64,000 bases of DNA from Burkholderiales bacterium (GTDB lineage Bacteria; Pseudomonadota; Gammaproteobacteria; Burkholderiales; JAEUOS01). The notes below the pieces were generated by a model. That model was not told the DNA's origin and ran no database searches. It saw nothing but the letters and a program-made list of their open reading frames with translations. The stretch spans positions 1-64,000 of the forward strand of contig CANJDH010000003.1 in assembly GCA_947473125.1 (NCBI GenBank), read 5' to 3'. Below, in pieces: positions 39,401 to 61,443 of this stretch (positions are counted from its first letter, which is position 1; every line of letters starts with the position of its first letter). The translations under genes and the position numbers were made by a program.

Positions 39401-40141
39401 ATGCACTCCTTTGCCCTTCATTTTGACCAGGTGTCCAAGCGCTATGGGCATGGGCCGATGATTCTTGACCGCGTATCGTTTGACGTGAAACCCGGCGAAT
39501 TCTTTGGTTTGGCTGGGGTTAATGGTGCCGGCAAGACCTCGCTCATCAAGTGCATGCTGGACCTTGCCGATTTTCCGTTCGGTCAGATTTCGATCTTCGG
39601 CACCTCAAGCCGTCGCTTCGAGGCGCGTCGGCGGCTTGCATTTCTACCCGAGCGTTTCATGCCCCCGCACTACCTCACGGGCCGCGATTTTTTGCGCATG
39701 ACTGCAGAACTGCATCAGCGCGCATACGACGAAACCGCCTCATTGGGCATGTGCGAGCGACTTGACTTGACGCACGACGCCATGAATCGACCTGTGCGTG
39801 CCTTCTCCAAAGGCATGACCCAAAAATTGGGCTTGGCTGCTGCGTTTCTTGCGGGGTCAGAATTACTGGTGCTCGATGAACCGATGAGCGGCCTTGACCC
39901 CAAGGCGCGAGCACTCGTCAAGGATCAATTGTTTGCGCTGCGTGATGCCGGTCGAACGCTTTTTTTTACATCGCATCAGCTCGCGGATGTGGAGGAAATA
40001 TGCGACCGGATTGCCGTATTGCACGAAGGGCGCGTCGCGTTCGCAGGAGCTCCCAAAGCATTGCTCGACAGCACGGGGGTGGCCACCCTTGAGCGCGCCT
40101 TCTTGCACGCCATTGAGTCGACGTCGCGCAATCCCACATGA
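39401..40141 (+). CDS. ABC transporter ATP-binding protein (pilus-locus associated)
   Basis: Walker A GLAGVNGAGKTSLIK; FSKGMTQKLGLAAAFL; LLVLDEPMSGLDP; no adjacent permease. Confidence 0.92.
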   Translation: MHSFALHFDQVSKRYGHGPMILDRVSFDVKPGEFFGLAGVNGAGKTSLIKCMLDLADFPFGQISIFGTSSRRFEARRRLAFLPERFMPPHYLTGRDFLRMTAELHQRAYDETASLGMCERLDLTHDAMNRPVRAFSKGMTQKLGLAAAFLAGSELLVLDEPMSGLDPKARALVKDQLFALRDAGRTLFFTSHQLADVEEICDRIAVLHEGRVAFAGAPKALLDSTGVATLERAFLHAIESTSRNPT

Positions 40142-41589
40142 GTGCGCCCCCCCCCTCACAGGCGAGCCTGCCAGTATTGCTTTTGGTCGATGATGATCAA
40201 TTGATCGTTGACACCCTGTCGATCGTCTTGGGCCGCGACTTCGAAGTGGTCTCGGCATCAACGAGACTGGCCGCCATCGAGTGCATGCGCGCGCTCCCAG
40301 CTCCGCCTCCCCTGGCGTTGATCGACCTCGGGTTGCCACCGGCGCAGCACGAGCCGGACGAAGGTTACGCACTCATCAGCGCCCTGTTGTCCCATTCGCC
40401 GACGACCAAGATCATCGTACTATCGGGCCAAGCGGAGGCTGCGGCGGGTCGCCACGCCCGCGCATTGGGCGCCACTGAATTCGTGCCCAAGCCAGCCAAT
40501 CCGCAGCGCCTTAAGCAATTGCTGCTGGACGCCCTCAAGGCACGCGAGGCGGAGTCCAATGATCACGTGCAACACTCCAGCCCGAGGTTTGACCCGCTTG
40601 ACGTTCTCATCGGCACATCAGCGCCCATGGTAGCGCTCAAGACACAGATCTCGCTTTACGCGGATTCGCCCTTCCCCGTATTGATAGAGGGTGAATCGGG
40701 AAGCGGCAAGGAAGTGGCGGCTTCTTGCGTGCACGCCAAAGGCGGGCGAAGCCTGAAACCATATTTCGCACTCAACTGTGCGGCCATCTCGCCCACGCTG
40801 ATGGAGCCAACGCTATTTGGCTATTCCAAAGGAGCGTTCACCGGCGCCCAGTCCAACAAGGCGGGCTACTTCGAAGATGCCGGCGACGGCACATTGTTCC
40901 TTGACGAAATCGGTGAACTGCCGCTGGCACTTCAGGCAAAATTGCTGCGCGTGCTCGAGAACGGCGAGTTCAACCGGGTTGGCGAAACCCAGGTTCGCAA
41001 ATCGCAAGCTCGCATTGTGGCCGCCACCAACCGCGATTTGCGAGCGGAATGCAAGAACGGGACATTCCGAACCGACCTCTATCATCGGCTCTCGGTCTTC
41101 ACGATGCGCGTGCCTGCCTTGCGCGACCTGGGGTCGGATCGGCTGTTCTTGCTGGACCATTTCAGGCGGTTCTATTCGGAATCCACCGGTGCGGCGCCAT
41201 TCAGGCTTACCGCAGCCGCCGAGGCCTTGTGGCTGGAATATCCCTTCTTCGGCAACGTCCGCGAATTGCGCAACGTCACCATCAGACTCGTGACAAAATT
41301 CGCGGGACGTGACGTAGACGCCGTTGAACTTGAGCTTGAATTCGACCCGAGCGCAATGCCCGAACCCGACAAAGTCCCGGTCAATGACGCCATGGACGAC
41401 ATTGCCATGCGCGAACTGGCGCGAGGTAACGGATTTTTCCTTGGCAGCACTCTCGAGGCTTGGGAGCGCGCCTACATTCACGCGGCCATGAAGCTTGCAA
41501 ACGGAAATGTCAGTCAGGCCGCACGCGCCCTCGGCCTCAATCGAACGACACTATATTCGCGCATGAGTGTTCTGGAAAAACTGCGCTAA
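40138..41589 (+). CDS. Sigma54-dependent response regulator (REC-AAA+-Fis HTH), PrsR/NtrC-like
   Basis: LLLVDDDQ..LIDLGLPP; IEGESGSGKEV, KGAFTGAQ, GTLFLDEIGELPLALQAKLLRVLE; C-terminal GNVSQAARALGLNRTTLYSRM. Confidence 0.92.
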   Translation: MSAPPPSQASLPVLLLVDDDQLIVDTLSIVLGRDFEVVSASTRLAAIECMRALPAPPPLALIDLGLPPAQHEPDEGYALISALLSHSPTTKIIVLSGQAEAAAGRHARALGATEFVPKPANPQRLKQLLLDALKAREAESNDHVQHSSPRFDPLDVLIGTSAPMVALKTQISLYADSPFPVLIEGESGSGKEVAASCVHAKGGRSLKPYFALNCAAISPTLMEPTLFGYSKGAFTGAQSNKAGYFEDAGDGTLFLDEIGELPLALQAKLLRVLENGEFNRVGETQVRKSQARIVAATNRDLRAECKNGTFRTDLYHRLSVFTMRVPALRDLGSDRLFLLDHFRRFYSESTGAAPFRLTAAAEALWLEYPFFGNVRELRNVTIRLVTKFAGRDVDAVELELEFDPSAMPEPDKVPVNDAMDDIAMRELARGNGFFLGSTLEAWERAYIHAAMKLANGNVSQAARALGLNRTTLYSRMSVLEKLR

Positions 41590-46830: not shown

Positions 46831-48564
46831 ATGAACGCTCCCGAAGTCAAGCCGCCAGCTCGCAAGCCCATCGGCAGGATCCTTGTCGAGCGCGGCCTTA
46901 TCTCGGAGGATCAGCTCCTCATCGCCCTCAAGGAACAGGGGCGCAGCAATCTGTCTCTCGGCAAGCAGCTCATCGCCCTTGGTTTCGTTACCGAAGCGAC
47001 CCTGCGCGATGCGCTTTCCGAGAACCTTGGCACGAAAGGCATTGACCTAACTCACATCATTATTGACCCGGCAGCGATCCGTGCCGTCCCGCGAGAGTTC
47101 GCCAAGCGGCATTTCCTGTTTCCGCTGCACATCGAAAGCAACCCTCAGAGGTTTTCGATTGCGATTGCCAATCCGAGCAACGTGGTGGCGCTTGATCAGC
47201 TGCGGGCATTGCTTGCGACCAAGCTGCGCGGCACTTATGAAATCATCACTCTTCTCGCGGGCGAGTCGGAAATTACCCGCGCGATCGACCAGTATTTTGG
47301 CCATGAGCTTTCGATCGATGGCATCCTCCACGAAATCGAGACGGGCGAGATCGATTACCAGAGCCTGACTACCGGAGCAGACACCTATAGTCAGCCGGTT
47401 GTACGCTTGGTGGACGCACTACTTGCCGACGGCGTGCAGCGCGGCGCTTCCGACATCCACTTTGAGCCGGAGCAAAATTTTCTGCGCATCCGTTACCGGA
47501 TAGACGGCGTGCTGCGGCAAATTCGTTCATTGCACAAGCAGTACTGGCCAGCTATGGTCGTGCGCATGAAGGTCATGTCAGGGATGAACATTGCGGAAGT
47601 TCGCGCACCACAGGATGGCCGTATCTCGCTTTCGCTGACCGGACGACAAGTTGATTTTCGCGTCGCCGCGCAACCTACGACGCACGGCGAAAACATCGTA
47701 TTGCGCATCCTTGACCGCCAGCGCGGATTGGTACCGCTCGATGAACTGGGCTTGCAGGAAGAGCAACTCGATTTGCTCAAGATCATGATCGCGCGCCCGG
47801 AGGGCATCATCCTCGTCACGGGTCCGACCGGCTCGGGCAAAACGACGACCTTGTATTCAATACTTTCGCATATCAACCAGGAGGGCATCAACATCATGAC
47901 CCTCGAAGATCCGGTGGAATATCCTCTAAGCATGGTGCGCCAGACCTCGGTCAACGAGGCCGTCAAGCTCGACTTCGCCAGCGGCATTCGCTCCCTGATG
48001 CGCCAGGACCCCGATGTCATCCTGGTCGGCGAGATTCGCGACAGTGACACCGCGGACATGGCCTTTCGCGCCGCCATGACCGGGCATCAGGTCTATTCGA
48101 CATTGCATACCAATTCGGCAGTGGGTTCAATACCACGCCTGCTTGACATCGGCATCATGTCCGACATCATGTCCGGCAACATCATCGGCATCATTGCGCA
48201 ACGACTGGTGCGACGTGTTTGCACCCATTGCCGTGAGGCGCATGCGGCGGATGAGATCGAATGCCGATTCATGGGCCTGCCCGCAGAAAATCCGCCAGTC
48301 ATCTACCGCGCTGTAGGGTGTGACGAGTGCGAGAACCAGGGTTATCGCGGCAGACTCACCATCATGGAAATTCTCAAGATGGATTTTGAACTTGATGAAT
48401 TGCTTGCGCGGCGCGCCACCGTTCGAGAGATTCTGGAACTCGCCCACGCCAAGGGATTCATTTCCCTGGCCGAAGACGGCGTGCGCCGCGTGCTCGACGG
48501 CTCGACGACGCTCGACGAAGTCGCTCGCGTCGTCGATTTCACCGCGCGCGCGCGCGCGGCGTAG
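46831..48564 (+). CDS. mshE: Pilus extension ATPase MshE (GspE/PilB family)
   Basis: GRILVERGLISEDQL MshEN domain; VTGPTGSGKTTTLYSIL, LEDPVEYPL, GEIRDSDTADMAFRAAMTGHQVYSTLHTN. Confidence 0.93.
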   Translation: MNAPEVKPPARKPIGRILVERGLISEDQLLIALKEQGRSNLSLGKQLIALGFVTEATLRDALSENLGTKGIDLTHIIIDPAAIRAVPREFAKRHFLFPLHIESNPQRFSIAIANPSNVVALDQLRALLATKLRGTYEIITLLAGESEITRAIDQYFGHELSIDGILHEIETGEIDYQSLTTGADTYSQPVVRLVDALLADGVQRGASDIHFEPEQNFLRIRYRIDGVLRQIRSLHKQYWPAMVVRMKVMSGMNIAEVRAPQDGRISLSLTGRQVDFRVAAQPTTHGENIVLRILDRQRGLVPLDELGLQEEQLDLLKIMIARPEGIILVTGPTGSGKTTTLYSILSHINQEGINIMTLEDPVEYPLSMVRQTSVNEAVKLDFASGIRSLMRQDPDVILVGEIRDSDTADMAFRAAMTGHQVYSTLHTNSAVGSIPRLLDIGIMSDIMSGNIIGIIAQRLVRRVCTHCREAHAADEIECRFMGLPAENPPVIYRAVGCDECENQGYRGRLTIMEILKMDFELDELLARRATVREILELAHAKGFISLAEDGVRRVLDGSTTLDEVARVVDFTARARAA

Positions 48565-52665: not shown

Positions 52666-53943
52666 ATGAGTCGAGACCTCAACTTGTGTCGCTCTTCCCC
52701 ACCCGCCCGACGACAGCGCGGCGTCGTGCTGCTTGTGATCCTGCTGGTCACGATGGCATTCGGTGGATATTTTGGCGTGCGCGCGCTCAATGCGGCCGTG
52801 GCTCGTAGCGGCATCCATGAAATGGAGTCGGAGAAGATCCTCTCCCAAGCGCGGCAAGCGTTGCTTGCCTGGTCGGTCACCACCGACGACAGTTTGCCCT
52901 CGGCTACAGTCAGCGGCCTGTTCGGCATCCGCGCGTTTCGTCCTGGCAACCTGCCCTACCCCGACCTCGCGACCGGGCTCACCAGTACCACGCCTTCTGA
53001 TGGCGTTCGCGATATCGGATGCGCCAGAACCACCTGGGCCGGTAGCGGCACACTGCGCCCGATTACTGCCACCCTGACAAACACCCAGAAGACCGGGATC
53101 CGCTGTTTTGGCCGACTACCGGTGGCAACACTGGGCCTTGACGCCGTCGCTGGCAGCTCCGCTGACGTTTCCGGCAGGTGGCCGTGGTATATCGTGTCGG
53201 CCAACCTGGTCAACATCAACCAGGATTGCCCTGCCCGCCTCGATGGCACACTAACCAACACCGCACTTGCGACCGGCACCAACGCGTGTGGAAACATCAA
53301 CACGCCTACCGCGCCGTTTCAGTGGATCACGGTACTGGATGAGTACGGGGCCGTCATCTCCACGCGGGTAGCCGCGGTCGTGATTCTCCCCGGCCAAGTC
53401 ACGACCCGCCAACCCGGCAACGTGCGCCAGACGCGCTCGGCAACGGCGCTTCCCAGCGCCTTTCTCGACACCGTCGACAATGCCGCGTGCGTTGGAGGTC
53501 GGTGCGACAACGGCCGGCTCAACGCCACGCCTCTGACCTTCATCCAGTGCGTCAAACCCGCATCAACCGCCGGTGATGCGCGCTTCAGCGCCAACTACGC
53601 GTGCACCGACCGTCTCACCTACATCACCGTGGATGAGTTGTTTGCCTACGCCGCAAAGCGCATAGAACGTGAATTTACGGCCTGCCTGGCGGAGTTTGCC
53701 CAAAACAATGCGAACAAGTACCCATGGGCGGCGCTGGCCGGTAGCCCGTCGTCAGTCACGGTCGGGAACACCAGTGGCAGCTTTCCCTCCAACGACGCCA
53801 GCGCCAACCCGACTTGTGCGAATCAGCAGGTTTACTGGGGGGGTTGGCAGCGTGCCGCCACCTACACCGTTGCGCCAGACCAGAGCGCGGCGCAATTTTC
53901 ATTTGCATCCCTCGCCGGCAGACCTGCCGTTTCGGTGCCCTGA
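52666..53943 (+). CDS. PilX/MshP-like pilin-related protein
   Basis: RRQRGVVLLVILLVTMAFGGYFGVRAL N-terminal helix without Glu5; Cys-rich C-terminal region. Confidence 0.6.
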   Translation: MSRDLNLCRSSPPARRQRGVVLLVILLVTMAFGGYFGVRALNAAVARSGIHEMESEKILSQARQALLAWSVTTDDSLPSATVSGLFGIRAFRPGNLPYPDLATGLTSTTPSDGVRDIGCARTTWAGSGTLRPITATLTNTQKTGIRCFGRLPVATLGLDAVAGSSADVSGRWPWYIVSANLVNINQDCPARLDGTLTNTALATGTNACGNINTPTAPFQWITVLDEYGAVISTRVAAVVILPGQVTTRQPGNVRQTRSATALPSAFLDTVDNAACVGGRCDNGRLNATPLTFIQCVKPASTAGDARFSANYACTDRLTYITVDELFAYAAKRIEREFTACLAEFAQNNANKYPWAALAGSPSSVTVGNTSGSFPSNDASANPTCANQQVYWGGWQRAATYTVAPDQSAAQFSFASLAGRPAVSVP

Positions 53944-54833
53944 TGAGAACCAAAACCCACTTCCTTCGTACTGGCCAGCACGGATTCACCCTCGCGGAAA
54001 TCGCCATTGTCACCATGATTTTGGGATTGCTGGTCGTCGGCGTCCTTGGCTCGCTCTCCAATCAGGTCACCCAGGGGCGCATCACCCGCACCGAGCGGCA
54101 GCTGGAGGAAATCCGCGAATCGCTGCTCGGCTTCGCCGCCCGCACCGGATACTTGCCATGCCCCGACACCGATGGCGACGGCATCGAAAATGCGCCGAAC
54201 CGGGCAGTCGCGACGCCACTCGCCTGCGCCTCCATTGAAGGTTTTCTGCCCTGGGTCACCCTCGGCGTTTCCCAGACCGATGCCTGGGGCATTCGATTTC
54301 GCTATCGCATCAAGGATGAATTTGCGCGTGCCAGCGCCGCCAACTCTCCCGCCGTCGGTGGCCTCACACCAATCGCAGGATGTGTGGCGACGGCTGGCAC
54401 TACCGATCCCGCATCGACGGCCGACCCGAACAATTGCACCTTGGACATTCAGGACACCGGCGACATCCAGATCAATACGCGCGGCGGCGCTACCGGAAAG
54501 ACATTGATCACACAAGCCGGCGGCGACCGCGTTTCAGGCATCGGCGTCCCAGTGGTAATCATGTCGTTCGGGCCCAACGGCTTTGGTGGTGTCGACGCAT
54601 TCGGCAATGTGCGTCCGTTGCCGCCAGTATCGAATGTCGACGAGAACACCAATGTGACCACCCCAAAACCGGCATTCGTCCCGGTGTTCGTCGCACGAAC
54701 CAGCAAAGGCATTGACGCCGGCTGCAGCGAAACCGCGGCAACAGGAGCACTATGCGAATTCGATGACATCGTCACCTGGATTCCGACACCACTGCTCGTC
54801 AGCAAGTTGCTTCAGGCGAATCGCTTGCCCTGA
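53943..54833 (+). CDS. Prepilin-type protein (pseudopilin/minor pilin)
   Basis: GQHG^FTLAEIAIVTMILGLLVVGVLG cleavage/methylation motif; start overlaps upstream stop (TGATG). Confidence 0.82.
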   Translation: MRTKTHFLRTGQHGFTLAEIAIVTMILGLLVVGVLGSLSNQVTQGRITRTERQLEEIRESLLGFAARTGYLPCPDTDGDGIENAPNRAVATPLACASIEGFLPWVTLGVSQTDAWGIRFRYRIKDEFARASAANSPAVGGLTPIAGCVATAGTTDPASTADPNNCTLDIQDTGDIQINTRGGATGKTLITQAGGDRVSGIGVPVVIMSFGPNGFGGVDAFGNVRPLPPVSNVDENTNVTTPKPAFVPVFVARTSKGIDAGCSETAATGALCEFDDIVTWIPTPLLVSKLLQANRLP

Positions 54834-55011: not shown

Positions 55012-56817
55012 TCAATCGGCGAGGGGCGCGTTGGTCAACACAATGCGCACTCCGCCAGGACGATTCTCGGCGATGGACAAGCGATAACCCAACTCAATGG
55101 CTTTGCTCGCAAGCTGGTAAAGGCCTATGCCCAACCCGTCGCGTGAAGCAACCGGCGCAATAAAAAGGCGCGCGGCCACCGAGGGCTCGATCTCCGCCCC
55201 ATCATCCTCAACCGCCAATTCGATCGAGCTCGCCTCGCATGTCAGGGAGACGCGTATCTGCAGGTCGACCTTGTTCGAGCGTTTGCGCAGCGCGTTGCTA
55301 ATCAGATTGTCTGCTGCGCTGTCGAATAAGGACTCAGCGATCGGCAAGTTGGTTTCGATGCCCGCAGAGTGAAACCGTATATCGTCGCGCTGATGCCTTT
55401 TGCGCATCGATATCCACCATGTTTGCAGGCGCAGCATACGCTGGCTGTCCGTGGAAGGTGCCTGCAGTTTGGTGATGGTGGCTCCAAGGCGCTGCGCTAT
55501 CGCAGGCAGCTGGCGCCCAATCAATTTGCGTACTTCGCCCTCACCTTCGACATAGTTGACCGCTTCGATGAGCCCGTTGAGTGATTGCAGCAGGTTCTTG
55601 ACATCATGCGTCAGGCGCGCGCCGGTTTCGTGCACCGCACGCAGGTAATTTTGTTGGACCAGTTTGGCTTCGCGCGCCTTGGCCCAATGAAACTCGGCAG
55701 CAAGACCGATCAGCAGCCGGAAATGCCATAAGAAGGCAGGCGACAACACCTCGCGGGTACGCAGCAGCACCTCGATTTCCCGGGACGAGTCATTGCCCTG
55801 CTCCTGGATCGCTATGCGCACCGCATCGCCCCCTTCGGTCGCGCCGAATCGCCCGTCCATTCCTGCGCCGCGCCACTCGGCTCCGGCAACAATCGCCAAC
55901 GCGCCCAGGGCACGCATTGCACCATTGAAAAAATCCGCAGGGTCCGTCTCTTCGCGGTGCAGAGCCGTCAGCTTGTCCAGCCACACTTCGTAAGGCAAAC
56001 CAAACGAAAGCAGGTAGCGTGACAGCAGCGCGGGCAACACGCCCGCGCCCGCGCCGCCCGCGCCGTCGCCCTGGTCAAAACGTGCCGAAAGCCACGAAAA
56101 GGCCAGCAGCAGGGAGCTGATGAATATCAGCGTGATCGCCATGCTTTCGAGGTAGCCGAGCTGACTTAACGCCATCAGGGAGATGCCAAAAAAAGTAACC
56201 AGCAGCAACAGACCAACGACCCAGGCGGTGTAAACCAGGTCGTAAGGAGCGCCCACGCCGGTCTCTGCAGTCTCTGCATCCCTTTTACCCCCGGCAGCCT
56301 GATCACCACGCCATGCCATTGCGCCCAGAACCAGAAGGGCCGCAGCCAGGCCCCGCGTCAGCCATTCACGCGCGATGGCTCCGGGCAAACCATTGCGCAG
56401 GTGCGCTGGCAATAGCGCCGGCACCACCAGCAGGAACAGCAACACCACCAAAAACCCCAGCGCAGCGAGGTAGAAGCGCCGCTCTGCGCGGGGGGCCAGC
56501 ATGGTGATGCGGCCGGCCGTCAGGCCTGTCAACAGTACGCTCCAGCCCAGCAGCACCCATGCGCTGAGCAATGCAGAGAGCAGTGCGCCGGAGATCGCGA
56601 TGCTGGCAATTTGCACAGTGGAAAGCTTGAGGCGCTGCGGGATCACCGGCTGCCACAGCAACACCGCGCCGATATGAGCAAAGAAGAACATGGGCCGCCA
56701 AACCGCATTGTCGTAGGCAGCCGGCGCAAACAGCAGCGCCAGAGCGAGCACCAGCGCACGATTGCGATAGCGATCAATCATGGGCGCGCCCAGAAGTGTG
56801 ACGTTATTGAGTTGCAT
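55012..56817 (-). CDS. Multi-TM sensor histidine kinase (PrsK-like HDVKN box, HATPase)
   Basis: Several N-terminal TMs; VHETGARLTHDVKNLLQSLNGLIEAVN; ADNLISNALRK; ELAVEDDGAEI; RDGLGIGLYQLASKAIELGY. Confidence 0.83.
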   Translation of the reverse strand: MQLNNVTLLGAPMIDRYRNRALVLALALLFAPAAYDNAVWRPMFFFAHIGAVLLWQPVIPQRLKLSTVQIASIAISGALLSALLSAWVLLGWSVLLTGLTAGRITMLAPRAERRFYLAALGFLVVLLFLLVVPALLPAHLRNGLPGAIAREWLTRGLAAALLVLGAMAWRGDQAAGGKRDAETAETGVGAPYDLVYTAWVVGLLLLVTFFGISLMALSQLGYLESMAITLIFISSLLLAFSWLSARFDQGDGAGGAGAGVLPALLSRYLLSFGLPYEVWLDKLTALHREETDPADFFNGAMRALGALAIVAGAEWRGAGMDGRFGATEGGDAVRIAIQEQGNDSSREIEVLLRTREVLSPAFLWHFRLLIGLAAEFHWAKAREAKLVQQNYLRAVHETGARLTHDVKNLLQSLNGLIEAVNYVEGEGEVRKLIGRQLPAIAQRLGATITKLQAPSTDSQRMLRLQTWWISMRKRHQRDDIRFHSAGIETNLPIAESLFDSAADNLISNALRKRSNKVDLQIRVSLTCEASSIELAVEDDGAEIEPSVAARLFIAPVASRDGLGIGLYQLASKAIELGYRLSIAENRPGGVRIVLTNAPLAD

Positions 56818-56929
56818 GACGGTGCCAAGCATACCGCGCTGCGCGAATTCACGCGTCGCTCGCACCGAAAAGAGCAGGCTGCCGTTAAAATCCATCTGCA
56901 CGCTCACCGTCAACCGGAATCTTCAACCC

Positions 56930-57706
56930 ATGTCGTATTTGCCAGGCACATCGACCATCGCACGGTTTGCGCTCGTTGAGGCCCTCCGCGGCAAACTGGC
57001 GCTGGCGGTGGTTGCAGTGGCGGTGCTCGGGCTTGGGGTCGCGCTGTTTCTGGGGGAAATGGCGATTACCGAAGCGGCGCGCATCCAGGGCACGGCGCTG
57101 GCGGCATTCAACCGGATGGCGGCGGCCCTCCTGGTTGTCAGTTTTGTCATTTCGGGGATCAGCCGTGAGCAAGCCGACAAGGGCCTTGAGATGCTCCTTG
57201 CGCAGGCCATCCCGCGCGCCAGCTATGTGATCGGCAAATTGATCGGTTACACCTTGCTGGCATGGCTTGCGGCATTGGTGTTTTGCGCGCCCCTGCTGAT
57301 ATTCGCCCCAGCATTGAACGTCGCAGCGTGGGGCATATCGCTGGCGCTGGAACTTACTCTGGTGGCAGCGGCGGCACTGGCCTGCTCGCTGGTCATCGGA
57401 CAAAGCGCTCTGAGTATGCTGATGGTGGCCGCGTTCTATACGCTGAGCCGGGTAATGGCGAGCATTCTGGCCATCACATCAAGCCCGGTTGGATCGATCG
57501 GTTCGCCAAGCTTCAAGACCATGGGTTGGTTCATGGGCGGGTTGGCGGCGTTGCTACCGGGATTTGACCGTTTTGCCTCCGCAGCCTGGCTCTGGGAAGG
57601 CAGCGCCGTGTGGTCGCATCTACCTGCGCTCCTGATTCAGTTCGTGATCTACCTGCCGCTGCTCGCTGGGGTGGCGCTGTTCGACTTCTACCGAAAAGAC
57701 CTGTGA
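56930..57706 (+). CDS. ABC-2 family transporter permease (pilus-locus associated)
   Basis: Six-TM pattern; no adjacent ATPase gene; likely partner of the 39401-40141 ATPase. Confidence 0.75.
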   Translation: MSYLPGTSTIARFALVEALRGKLALAVVAVAVLGLGVALFLGEMAITEAARIQGTALAAFNRMAAALLVVSFVISGISREQADKGLEMLLAQAIPRASYVIGKLIGYTLLAWLAALVFCAPLLIFAPALNVAAWGISLALELTLVAAAALACSLVIGQSALSMLMVAAFYTLSRVMASILAITSSPVGSIGSPSFKTMGWFMGGLAALLPGFDRFASAAWLWEGSAVWSHLPALLIQFVIYLPLLAGVALFDFYRKDL

Positions 57707-58449
57707 GTCGATTGTTACCGACTTGGCTGCGTCGGGACCAACGACGCCTTTCACTGGTGCCGATTCCGGTAGTGTTAATCCTGGCCTGCGCCCTGCTGTG
57801 GCAGACCATCTGGTCTGCGATGTATCCGCGCACGCACCCAGGCGCGGAAGACCTTACCGAGCCACCATCGGCAGCATCGATCCGCGTATCGAGCCTCGAC
57901 GAGTCGGTAGCCTATGCCAAGCTGATGAACCTGACCCTTCAGGCCCATGACAACCAGCCCGGGATCAGCCTGCCTTTTCGTCACCTCGATTACGTGCGCA
58001 TCGAAGCGTGGCTGGGACGCATACTCGAGCTGGACCCGACGGGGCAGTACCCGCTGCTCGCGGCCAGCCGCCTTTACGGAACCGTGGACGATCCGGTCCG
58101 CCAGCGGCGCATGCTCGATTTTGTGCAGCGCCAGTTTCTGGCCGATCCCAACCAGCGCTGGCAGTGGATGGCTCATGCCGCTTACGTGGCCCGTCACCAG
58201 TTGCGCGATCTGCCTCTGGCTGCGCGTTTCGCGGAATCGTTGCGCTTGCATGCCACCAGTCGGCAGGTGCCGGCCTGGGCGCGCCAAATGGAAATCTTCC
58301 TGCGTGCCGACATGAACGAATTTGACACCGCAAGGGTGCTGCTTGGCGCTCTTTTGGCGAGTGGGCAGGTAACCGACCCGTCGGAATACCGGTTCCTGGC
58401 CGGGCGCTTGACGGAGTTGGAGACTCGGAGAGGCCCCGCCGGAAAGTGA
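57703..58449 (+). CDS. Membrane-anchored helical-repeat protein of unknown function
   Basis: GTG start overlapping permease stop; N-terminal TM LSLVPIPVVLILACALLWQTIW; alpha-helical TPR-like remainder. Confidence 0.6.
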   Translation: MSRLLPTWLRRDQRRLSLVPIPVVLILACALLWQTIWSAMYPRTHPGAEDLTEPPSAASIRVSSLDESVAYAKLMNLTLQAHDNQPGISLPFRHLDYVRIEAWLGRILELDPTGQYPLLAASRLYGTVDDPVRQRRMLDFVQRQFLADPNQRWQWMAHAAYVARHQLRDLPLAARFAESLRLHATSRQVPAWARQMEIFLRADMNEFDTARVLLGALLASGQVTDPSEYRFLAGRLTELETRRGPAGK

Positions 58450-58482
58450 CGGAGTTTCGTCACCTTTGACGCCGTTACGACA
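58447..58482. promoter_or_regulatory. Two tandem dyads, 20 bp apart, upstream of the sigma54 promoter (putative activator sites)
   Basis: TGACG-GAGTTT-CGTCA (58447-58462) and TGACG-CCGTTA-CGACA (58467-58482). Confidence 0.55.
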
Positions 58483-58552
58483 TCGTACCTCCAGCTTAAC
58501 CTGGAATTTCGCGAAAAACTGGCCGTTTGGCGTTAAAATAGATATCAATGGT

Positions 58553-58569
58553 TTGGCACGCCGCTTGCA
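58553..58569 (+). promoter_or_regulatory. Sigma54 (-24/-12) promoter of the prepilin gene
   Basis: TTGGCACG-CCGC-TTGCA, consensus TGGCACG-N4-TTGCW. Confidence 0.88.
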
Positions 58570-58638
58570 ATAGCAGTCTTAGAACACGTTTTATTCCTTT
58601 AGCCCATAGATAAGTATCACAGCCCAAGGGGGGTTAGC

Positions 58639-59340
58639 ATGCGCAAACAGCACGGATTTACACTGGTTGAAATTGCCATCGTTCTGGTCATCATCGGCCT
58701 GCTGCTTGGCGGCATCCTGCGCGGCCAGGAGCTGATCCAGAACGCTCGCGTACGCAACATCATCGATCAGCAAAATGGCATCAAGGCGGCATTTTTCGGT
58801 TTTCAGGATCGCTTTCGTATGATTCCCGGTGATTTGACCGCCGCGCAGATTGCGCAAGTGGGTTCCGGCGTGATTGTCGCCAGTGCGGCAGGAAACGGCC
58901 AGATTGACGCTGCTGACGCCGCTGCCGCCTTCCAGAACATCACCATCACCGGCTTTATCAGTTGTCAGACCTGCAATGCCGCAGCGGCGGCGGCGTCTTC
59001 CGCGGTCAACAGCCCGGTCAACGTGTATGGCGGCGTGTTGCAGTTGGTCACCGATACCGTCTATTCCACTCCGACGCAGATTTTGCCCGGCGACGGCCAG
59101 ATCCGCCACAATATCAAGACCGGCAATCTGATTCCCTCCAACGTGTTGTACGAAGCCGACGTCAAGGTTGATGACGGTGTTCCGAACGGCGGGCAGTTCC
59201 GCTTCAGCAACTGGATGGCTGCGGGCGGTGTGGCGCCCACGGTGGCCTGCGAGAACGGCGCGGTCAGCGCAACCACGCCGTGGCAGACCACGGCAAACAA
59301 CTTCGAACTCAACTGCGGGGCGGCGACACTGATCAATTGA
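58639..59340 (+). CDS. Type IV prepilin (likely major pilin of the locus)
   Basis: KQHG^FTLVEIAIVLVIIGLLLGGILRGQELIQNARVRNIIDQ; own promoter; followed by terminator. Confidence 0.82.
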   Translation: MRKQHGFTLVEIAIVLVIIGLLLGGILRGQELIQNARVRNIIDQQNGIKAAFFGFQDRFRMIPGDLTAAQIAQVGSGVIVASAAGNGQIDAADAAAAFQNITITGFISCQTCNAAAAAASSAVNSPVNVYGGVLQLVTDTVYSTPTQILPGDGQIRHNIKTGNLIPSNVLYEADVKVDDGVPNGGQFRFSNWMAAGGVAPTVACENGAVSATTPWQTTANNFELNCGAATLIN

Positions 59341-59367: not shown

Positions 59368-59397
59368 AAAAAGCCCGCCCCCGTAGCGGGCTTTTTT
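59368..59397 (+). terminator. Rho-independent terminator after the prepilin gene
   Basis: AAAAAGCCCGC-ccccgta-GCGGGCTTTTTT. Confidence 0.92.
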
Positions 59398-61372
59398 ATG
59401 CCGCACCTCCGAGCAGGCGGTTTTCAGCACGTGCAATCGGCTCCGGCAAGCCCTTGAGAACCACCACGTCGCCGGACTCCAGGACCAGTGCTGCGTGGGC
59501 ATCGGTGTTTTGCGCGGCGCGCCGGCGTATCGATACGACTTCCACGGCGTCCTGGTACAAACCGACCTGGTCAAACGTCTTGCCCACCGCAAAAGCGCCG
59601 GCTGGCAGCGGCACCGAATGCAGGCGCAAGTGCTCACGCTCGGTGAGGTCCTCGGCATCATCGCTGGCGCCGTGGAAAAACCCGCGCAGAAGGCCATAGC
59701 GCGAATCGCGCACCGCCCTGACGCGCTTTACGACCCGGCCAAGCGGGACGCCTGCCAGCAGCAGCGCGTGCGATGCCAGCATCAGGCTCGACTCGAGCGC
59801 CTCAGCCACCACTTCGGCGGCGCCAGCCGCGCGAAGCTTGTCCATCTCGCCGTCATCCTTGACGCGCACCACCACCGGAAGGCCCGGCCGCACCTCGTTC
59901 ACATGGTGCAGGATGCGCATCGCCGAGGTGGTGTCGGCATAGGAAATCACCACGGCCTGGGCGCGCATCAGTCCTGCGGCGATCAGCGATTCGCGCCGGC
60001 TGGCGTCAGCGTATACCACCGCATCCCCCGCCGCCGCCGCATCTCGGATGCGTTCCGGGTCGAGGTCAAGCGCCATGTACTCAACCCCTTCGGCAGACAG
60101 CAGCTTGGCAAGCGCCTGCCCATTTCGGCCATAGCCGCAAATAAGAACATGCCGGCTCGACTTCAGGGTGCGGGTGGCCAGTTGCGTCAGCTCCAGGGAT
60201 TTCATCATCCATTCGTCGCGTGCAAAACGCAGGGCAATGCTGTCGCTCATGGCGATCAAAAAGGGAGCCGCCAACATGGACAGGAGCATGGCGGCAAGAA
60301 TCGCATCCATCAACTGCGCATCCACCAATTTGAGGCCGCCCGCCTGTGCGAGCAGCACGAAGCCGAATTCGCCGGCCTGTGCCAGAGCCAAAGCGGTACG
60401 GATTGCCGTTCCCTGCGGCCGTTTGAAGGCGCGCCCGAGGAGGGCCACGATCACAAATTTGGCTCCTACCGGAATCAATGTGAGGAATAACACCAGGCCG
60501 AATTGCGCCGCCACGGAACGCACGTCGAGCAGCATCCCGATGGTGACAAAAAACAATCCCAACAGCACATCGCGAAACGGCTTGATGTCCTCTTCCACCT
60601 GGTGCCTGAATTCGGTCTCGGAAATGAGCATGCCAGCCACAAAGGCCCCCAGAGCCAGCGACAACCCGGCCAGCTCCGTGATGTAGGCAAGGCCAAGGGT
60701 CAGCAGCAGCAGGTTCAGGGTAAACAGCTCGGTAGAGCGGCGCCGCGCCACTACCATGAGCCAGGCGCGAATCGCACGGCGCCCGGCAAACAGCAAAATG
60801 GCCAGCACCAGGGCGGCCTTGGCCAAGGCCACGGCAAGCGTCGCCGCCAGATTCTCCGGAGCCTGCGCCAGGGCCGGCACCACCACCAGAAAAGGTACCA
60901 CGGCCAGGTCCTGGAATAGCAAAATGCCCATCACGTCGCGCCCGTGCGCCGACTCAAGCTCGACCCGCTCTGACAACAACTTGACAACGATGGCCGTCGA
61001 CGACATGGCCAGCGCACCACCCAATGCAACGCCAGCTTGCCAACCCAGCCCCATCGCCAGCGCAGCGCCAACCCCTACAAGCGTCGTCACCAGAACCTGC
61101 GCAAAACCGAATCCGAACACGGTCGCGCGCATCGCCATCAGTCGCGGCAGGTTGAATTCTAGCCCGATCGAAAACATCAGGAACACAACCCCAAACTCGG
61201 CCAGATAGCGCGTCTCCTGCACATCGGGCACGAGGCCGATGGCGTGGGGCCCGATCAGGATGCCGGCCAGCAGGTACCCCAGCAGTGGCGGCAACTGCAG
61301 CTTTCGCGCCAGGGCCACCACGGCCACAGATGCGGCCAGAAAAATCAGGACAATTTCGAGGGTGTTGGGCAT
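59396..61372 (-). CDS. CPA2-family monovalent cation:proton antiporter with RCK (TrkA-N) domain, Kef-like
   Basis: KLQLPPLLGYLLAGILIGPHAIGLV; RHVLICGYGRNGQALAKLLSAEGVEYMALDLDPERI. Confidence 0.92.
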   Translation of the reverse strand: MPNTLEIVLIFLAASVAVVALARKLQLPPLLGYLLAGILIGPHAIGLVPDVQETRYLAEFGVVFLMFSIGLEFNLPRLMAMRATVFGFGFAQVLVTTLVGVGAALAMGLGWQAGVALGGALAMSSTAIVVKLLSERVELESAHGRDVMGILLFQDLAVVPFLVVVPALAQAPENLAATLAVALAKAALVLAILLFAGRRAIRAWLMVVARRRSTELFTLNLLLLTLGLAYITELAGLSLALGAFVAGMLISETEFRHQVEEDIKPFRDVLLGLFFVTIGMLLDVRSVAAQFGLVLFLTLIPVGAKFVIVALLGRAFKRPQGTAIRTALALAQAGEFGFVLLAQAGGLKLVDAQLMDAILAAMLLSMLAAPFLIAMSDSIALRFARDEWMMKSLELTQLATRTLKSSRHVLICGYGRNGQALAKLLSAEGVEYMALDLDPERIRDAAAAGDAVVYADASRRESLIAAGLMRAQAVVISYADTTSAMRILHHVNEVRPGLPVVVRVKDDGEMDKLRAAGAAEVVAEALESSLMLASHALLLAGVPLGRVVKRVRAVRDSRYGLLRGFFHGASDDAEDLTEREHLRLHSVPLPAGAFAVGKTFDQVGLYQDAVEVVSIRRRAAQNTDAHAALVLESGDVVVLKGLPEPIARAENRLLGGAA

Positions 61373-61443
61373 CAGGGGCCGCCTCTCTGCAATCTTGATG
61401 CCAACTACGGATTGCGGCGAGCGCGTTTGCTATACTCGGGCAG

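Follow-up and report, generated by a model that had tools for sequence, protein, structure and literature searches.

An MSHA-like prepilin gene very probably switched on through sigma-54 by a linked kinase-regulator pair

The pilin gene pilA of Pseudomonas aeruginosa and others is controlled by a membrane kinase, PilS, and an NtrC-type regulator, PilR, together with RpoN. PilR sites have been described as NifA-like TGT-N11-AGA sequences plus GTCT elements (PMC6058289). In commensal Neisseria, the two-component system Nps/Npa acts with RpoN and has the pilin gene pilE as its sole target among the pilus genes tested (PMC6528607). The PrsK/PrsR system governs PEP-CTERM genes, which are single-gene units with an activator motif (sometimes repeated) and a sigma-54 motif, the latter having a phylogenetic profile that matches those of the regulator and kinase (PMC1569441).

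Here we describe a prepilin gene, located at the end of a pilus locus of a Burkholderiales bacterium, for which a comparable arrangement can be proposed. Coordinates refer to the window, the whole 64-kb stretch of DNA that was analysed, unless a contig or locus is given. The gene and its closest signals are:

58639 to 59340, plus strand: prepilin of 233 aa, probable major subunit of an MSHA-like pilus
58626 to 58633, plus strand: ribosome-binding site, AAGGGGGG, read directly
59368 to 59396, plus strand: terminator hairpin after the prepilin gene, an 11 bp stem ending in a T run (-16.6 kcal/mol, z -3.6)

The product is a type IV prepilin with a GFxxxE cleavage motif, a hydrophobic helix and a pilin-like predicted fold, in which a long N-terminal helix is accompanied by C-terminal strands. 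It scores above the cut-offs of TIGR02532 (26.1 versus 16.3) and PF07963, the latter detected in 28/28. The ribosome-binding site, called strong in the initial annotation, is indeed present and well spaced from the ATG. The hairpin was not flagged by a simple terminator scan. With its own ribosome-binding site and an 11-bp terminator hairpin, the prepilin gene is probably a single-gene unit. We term the pilus MSHA-like because its secretin scores just under the cut-off of the MshL model TIGR02519 (249.7 versus 250.2 bits). The assembly ATPase (46831-48564) has a c-di-GMP-binding domain of the MshE type (NF053729, 62.6 bits versus 38), so that assembly of the pilus may be regulated at the protein level too.

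It is plausible that this prepilin is the major subunit. A Foldseek search with the predicted model returned weak matches (best E 0.019), the best of which were the major pilins TcpA of V. cholerae and PilA1 of C. difficile, a suggestive likeness. This ranking, the separate single-gene unit with its strong ribosome-binding site and terminator, and the tandem amplification of the gene in relatives all argue against a reading in which the regulation is as proposed below but the product is a minor or tip pilin, with a different protein as major subunit. We regard that reading as unlikely, with the weakness of the fold matches and a second prepilin-like gene at 53814-54833 counting in its favour, and treat the prepilin at 58639-59340 as the candidate major subunit. 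The tandem copies are divergent and number four or five per locus in two genomes, G117 (C73:41304-45357 and C12) and G150 (C135), which suggests pilin diversification.

The promoter of the gene can be placed precisely:

58553 to 58569, plus strand: sigma-54 (-24/-12) promoter of the prepilin gene, TTGGCACGCCGCTTGCA, exact consensus

The initial annotation had reported an exact consensus about 70 bp before the ATG, and both statements hold. The site matches YTGGCACRNNNNTTGCW exactly, with its GG (58555-58556) and GC (58567-58568) spaced 10 bp apart, and lies 69 nt from the ATG at 58639. The position of the GC predicts a transcription start near 58580, at most a base or two from the 58581 predicted previously. 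The core TGGCAC-N5-TTGC has its only exact match in the window here, and the site scores 20.3, the maximum of a 13-position matrix with frequencies approximated from the published consensus; the runner-up in the window scores 14.7. Genome-wide (4.88 Mb), the core has 18 occurrences versus 8 for a reversed control pattern, and the consensus by itself is thus weak evidence rather than proof. Many such matches are thus chance ones, which would suit a reading in which this one is fortuitous and the prepilin is transcribed from another promoter. We nevertheless consider a fortuitous match highly improbable: the position and sequence of the promoter are kept before orthologues across nearly all regulator-positive families (see below), the GG, A and GC are invariant across 61 promoter sites, and a search for sigma-70-like matches nearby gave a single one, which falls within the prepilin gene. 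A second -24/-12-like site, TTGGCATCAAGATTGCA (61388-61404, minus strand), is found just 5' of a kefB-like gene (59396-61372, minus strand), and a similar site, TTGGCATCACTTTTGCA, precedes the kefB-like counterpart in another genome (G001, L225), without activator boxes.

The locus encodes a candidate activator for this promoter, as the initial annotation had noted, and a candidate partner kinase:

40138 to 41589, plus strand: NtrC-type response regulator, proposed to activate the prepilin promoter (from domains, invariant catalytic residues and co-occurrence)
55012 to 56913, minus strand: sensor histidine kinase (HATPase_c), proposed partner of the regulator

The regulator has the composition of an NtrC-family sigma-54 activator, with a receiver domain, an AAA+ domain (Sigma54_activat) bearing GAFTGA, and a Fis-type HTH. 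An alignment of 11 orthologues shows no variation at D18-D20, D63, K118 or the GAFTGA motif, and next to none in the Walker A sequence GESGSGK. It scores below the curated cut-offs of PrsR (TIGR02915, 315.7 versus 502.6 bits; no protein of the genome passes) and NtrC (TIGR01818, 307 versus 558.6 bits), and no PilR model appears among the 25 NCBIfam matches listed. Judged from these scores, the regulator belongs to a clade without a name and with its own candidate operator. Its named relatives are in Betaproteobacteria, for example Rhodocyclaceae, Ca. Accumulibacter and Dechloromonas, the last including the laboratory isolates Dechloromonas agitata is5 and Dechloromonas sp. CZR5. The kinase, whose true start is probably downstream of the listed TTG, reaches 41.8 bits with PrsK (TIGR02916, cut-off 300). 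Assignment of the pair as PrsK/PrsR was rejected, both proteins being far under the cut-offs.

We looked for both proteins, regulator and prepilin, across 180 genomes of this order and in near relatives, taking as regulator orthologues matches with E <1e-100 (~52-69% identity; other activators gave ~1e-60 to 1e-73). The 150 nt 5' of each first-copy prepilin were scanned for promoters scoring at least 11, a threshold set after the first 30 loci had been seen. Among genomes of the order with the prepilin, the promoter is present in 61/70 regulator-positive versus 1/27 regulator-negative genomes (Fisher p = 6e-15). These counts include two genomes moved to regulator-positive on a second look, G073 (regulator match cut short at the N terminus) and G169 (kinase beside the prepilin); with only G073 moved, they are 60/69 versus 2/28 (p = 7e-14). 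Genome counts are phylogenetically non-independent, and the main safeguard is a set of family and genus contrasts rather than a full tree model. By family, the promoter occurs in 27/28 regulator-positive versus 1/15 negative families. Seven families hold both states and all are concordant (an eighth, f1, depends on G002, an incomplete genome), and there are four within-genus contrasts (g14, g23, g26 and g50). The one remaining match in a negative genome (G083) is 122 nt away from the ATG, beyond the span of 33-101 nt seen in positive genomes, and 5/103 regions pass in a control stretch 300-450 nt upstream. Nine regulator-positive genomes have no above-threshold site, and several of these, such as G127 and G013, combine degenerate sites with good activator boxes.

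RpoN is kept in 26/27 regulator-negative genomes and the secretin in all 26 of those searched, so that the difference is one of regulation and not of the pilus. The rpoN gene itself is found ~6 kb downstream of the prepilin, just past the window (G000:C3:65901-66362; gene L223:1959-3371), after kdsD-kdsC-lptC-lptA-lptB-like genes. Because the prepilin is ~6-16 kb from rpoN in many regulator-negative genomes as well, a place near rpoN may be ancestral for it.

The kinase follows the regulator closely, with orthologues in 36/36 regulator-positive and 0/26 regulator-negative genomes. Where regulator and pilus machinery lie together on a different contig or at a distance of hundreds of kb (e.g., G023, G025, G027, G105, G143 and G170), the kinase still adjoins the prepilin, in divergent orientation. 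In G001 the regulator and kinase are adjacent; the prepilin and an MshL-like secretin were sought there and neither was found. This distribution and placement of the kinase is the strongest evidence suggesting that kinase, regulator and prepilin are one functional unit. At its ends, the pilus locus of the window carries an ABC ATPase (39401-40141) and a putative permease with a further protein (56780-58449). The latter two lie between the kinase and prepilin genes, which are close together in many relatives.

When the regions 5' of the promoters were searched for gapped palindromes, GTCG-N6-CGAC turned up in 17/59 of them versus 0.4 expected. The refined de novo motif, yGwCGaaATttCGwCr, is palindromic over 16 bp and usually paired, its two copies lying exactly 20 bp apart, and the prepilin promoter of the window is preceded by such a pair:

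58447 to 58462, no strand assigned: candidate activator box 1, TGACGGAGTTTCGTCA, centred at ~-125 and overlapping the stop codon of the gene upstream
58467 to 58482, no strand assigned: candidate activator box 2, TGACGCCGTTACGACA, centred at ~-105, exactly 20 bp from box 1

Box 1 has the top matrix score of the whole window (17.0, versus a maximum of 7.4 in 20 shuffles), and box 2 has intact arms and a degenerate center. The spacing is tightly kept, with a second box at exactly ±20 bp in 37/58 relatives and at 19 or 21 bp in ~2-3% each. A matrix trained on half of the genomes recovered boxes in 36/44 held-out positive regions versus 1/27 negative ones. The exception is G169, scored there as regulator-negative, in which the kinase adjoins the prepilin and the regulator was probably lost to a contig break. 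Some regulator-positive genomes with a good promoter have no good box (G024, G025, G145 and G070). The promoter, the boxes with their spacing, and the co-occurrence of these elements with regulator and kinase are direct observations from sequence, and the operator pair and the kinase are new relative to the initial annotation. A possible IHF site between boxes and promoter, TATCAATGGTTTG (~58543-58555), was rejected as a conserved part; it runs into the -24 element, and only 8/61 relatives have one.

The double box at zero mismatches occurs once in the 4.88-Mb genome; allowing two mismatches in ten genomes proved too noisy, and only this zero-mismatch match was used. No further consensus sigma-54 site in this genome has both good boxes and a clear gene. 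Composite box-plus-promoter sites near the regulator number three in 69 named loci (1.19 Mb), one belonging to a prepilin and the other two weak, and none was found in the pattern loci of G001, G119 and G131. The MSHA-like pilus assembly genes are probably outside this control.

The genome also holds four tandem, nearly identical canonical pilA genes (G000:C32:29206-31505, L224), each with its own -24/-12-like site scoring 10-15. These sites, three further NtrC-type response regulators in the genome, and the fact that the boxes fall in a broad TGT-N10-ACA class would fit a promoter that is sigma-54-dependent but driven by another activator, a PilR or an NtrC, while the locus regulator controls something else. 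However, the absence of promoter and boxes coincides exactly with that of the locus regulator and kinase, and boxes sought before the canonical pilA genes are missing there. Control by another activator is accordingly improbable in our estimate. Since promoter and boxes are present with the kinase-regulator pair and missing without it, this pair is very probably what activates this one pilin gene via sigma-54. The earlier proposal that the locus regulator controls the prepilin thereby gains support, at the level of sequence comparison, from promoter co-occurrence, from an operator common to regulator-positive genomes and from the linked kinase.

Phosphorylated NtrC-type activators oligomerise on their sites and loop to sigma-54 polymerase, and the same is expected of this regulator. 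In the proposed mechanism, the kinase would phosphorylate the regulator, which would bind the two 16-bp palindromes, placed about two helical turns apart, and open the promoter through its GAFTGA loop; the prepilin would then be transcribed on its own. Phosphotransfer, regulator-box binding and the role of the prepilin as major subunit are steps that we infer. We hold with high confidence the model as a whole, in which transcription of the prepilin gene on its own from a sigma-54 promoter would be switched on by a dedicated kinase-regulator pair via two boxes. If PilS is a guide, the kinase might detect pilin within the membrane, and its position beside the prepilin gene fits this idea. A bolder extension, which we advance tentatively and would not yet favor, is that this is a dedicated, unnamed betaproteobacterial two-component system with one pilin gene as its sole or main target. 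In that case the kinase would sit beside the pilin gene because it monitors the pilin in the membrane, and the three elements (kinase, operator and pilin) would make up a feedback cassette that can be acquired, discarded or relocated independently of the pilus machinery.

A specific operator sequence, a regulator and a kinase are now proposed for an MSHA-like pilin. The control of this pilin appears rewired: regulator, kinase, boxes and promoter are lost as a set from genomes that keep the pilus machinery, and this opens the evolution of pilin control to direct testing. In cultures of Accumulibacter, a link to the formation of granules has been reported for filamentous proteins, pili included (PMC12019908).

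Compared with the described systems, the arrangement resembles PilS/PilR-RpoN control of pilA in combining a membrane kinase, an NtrC-type regulator and sigma-54 on a pilin gene. The likeness to PilR is taken as one of function rather than of membership. In contrast to PilS/PilR, the candidate operator consists of two TGTCG-N6-CGACA palindromes spaced by 20 bp, and the pilus is MSHA-like, with the canonical pilA genes of the genome forming a separate set without these boxes. Nps/Npa likewise places a pilin gene under a two-component system and RpoN, but its kinase and regulator genes share an operon and it requires IHF, whereas here the two genes lie apart and IHF-like sites show no conservation. 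PrsK/PrsR-sigma-54 follows the same regulatory logic, and PrsR is the highest-scoring named family for the regulator. Motif 1 of Haft for that system is 17 nt long and ends in TTTACA, unlike the boxes described here, for which the proposed target is a prepilin.
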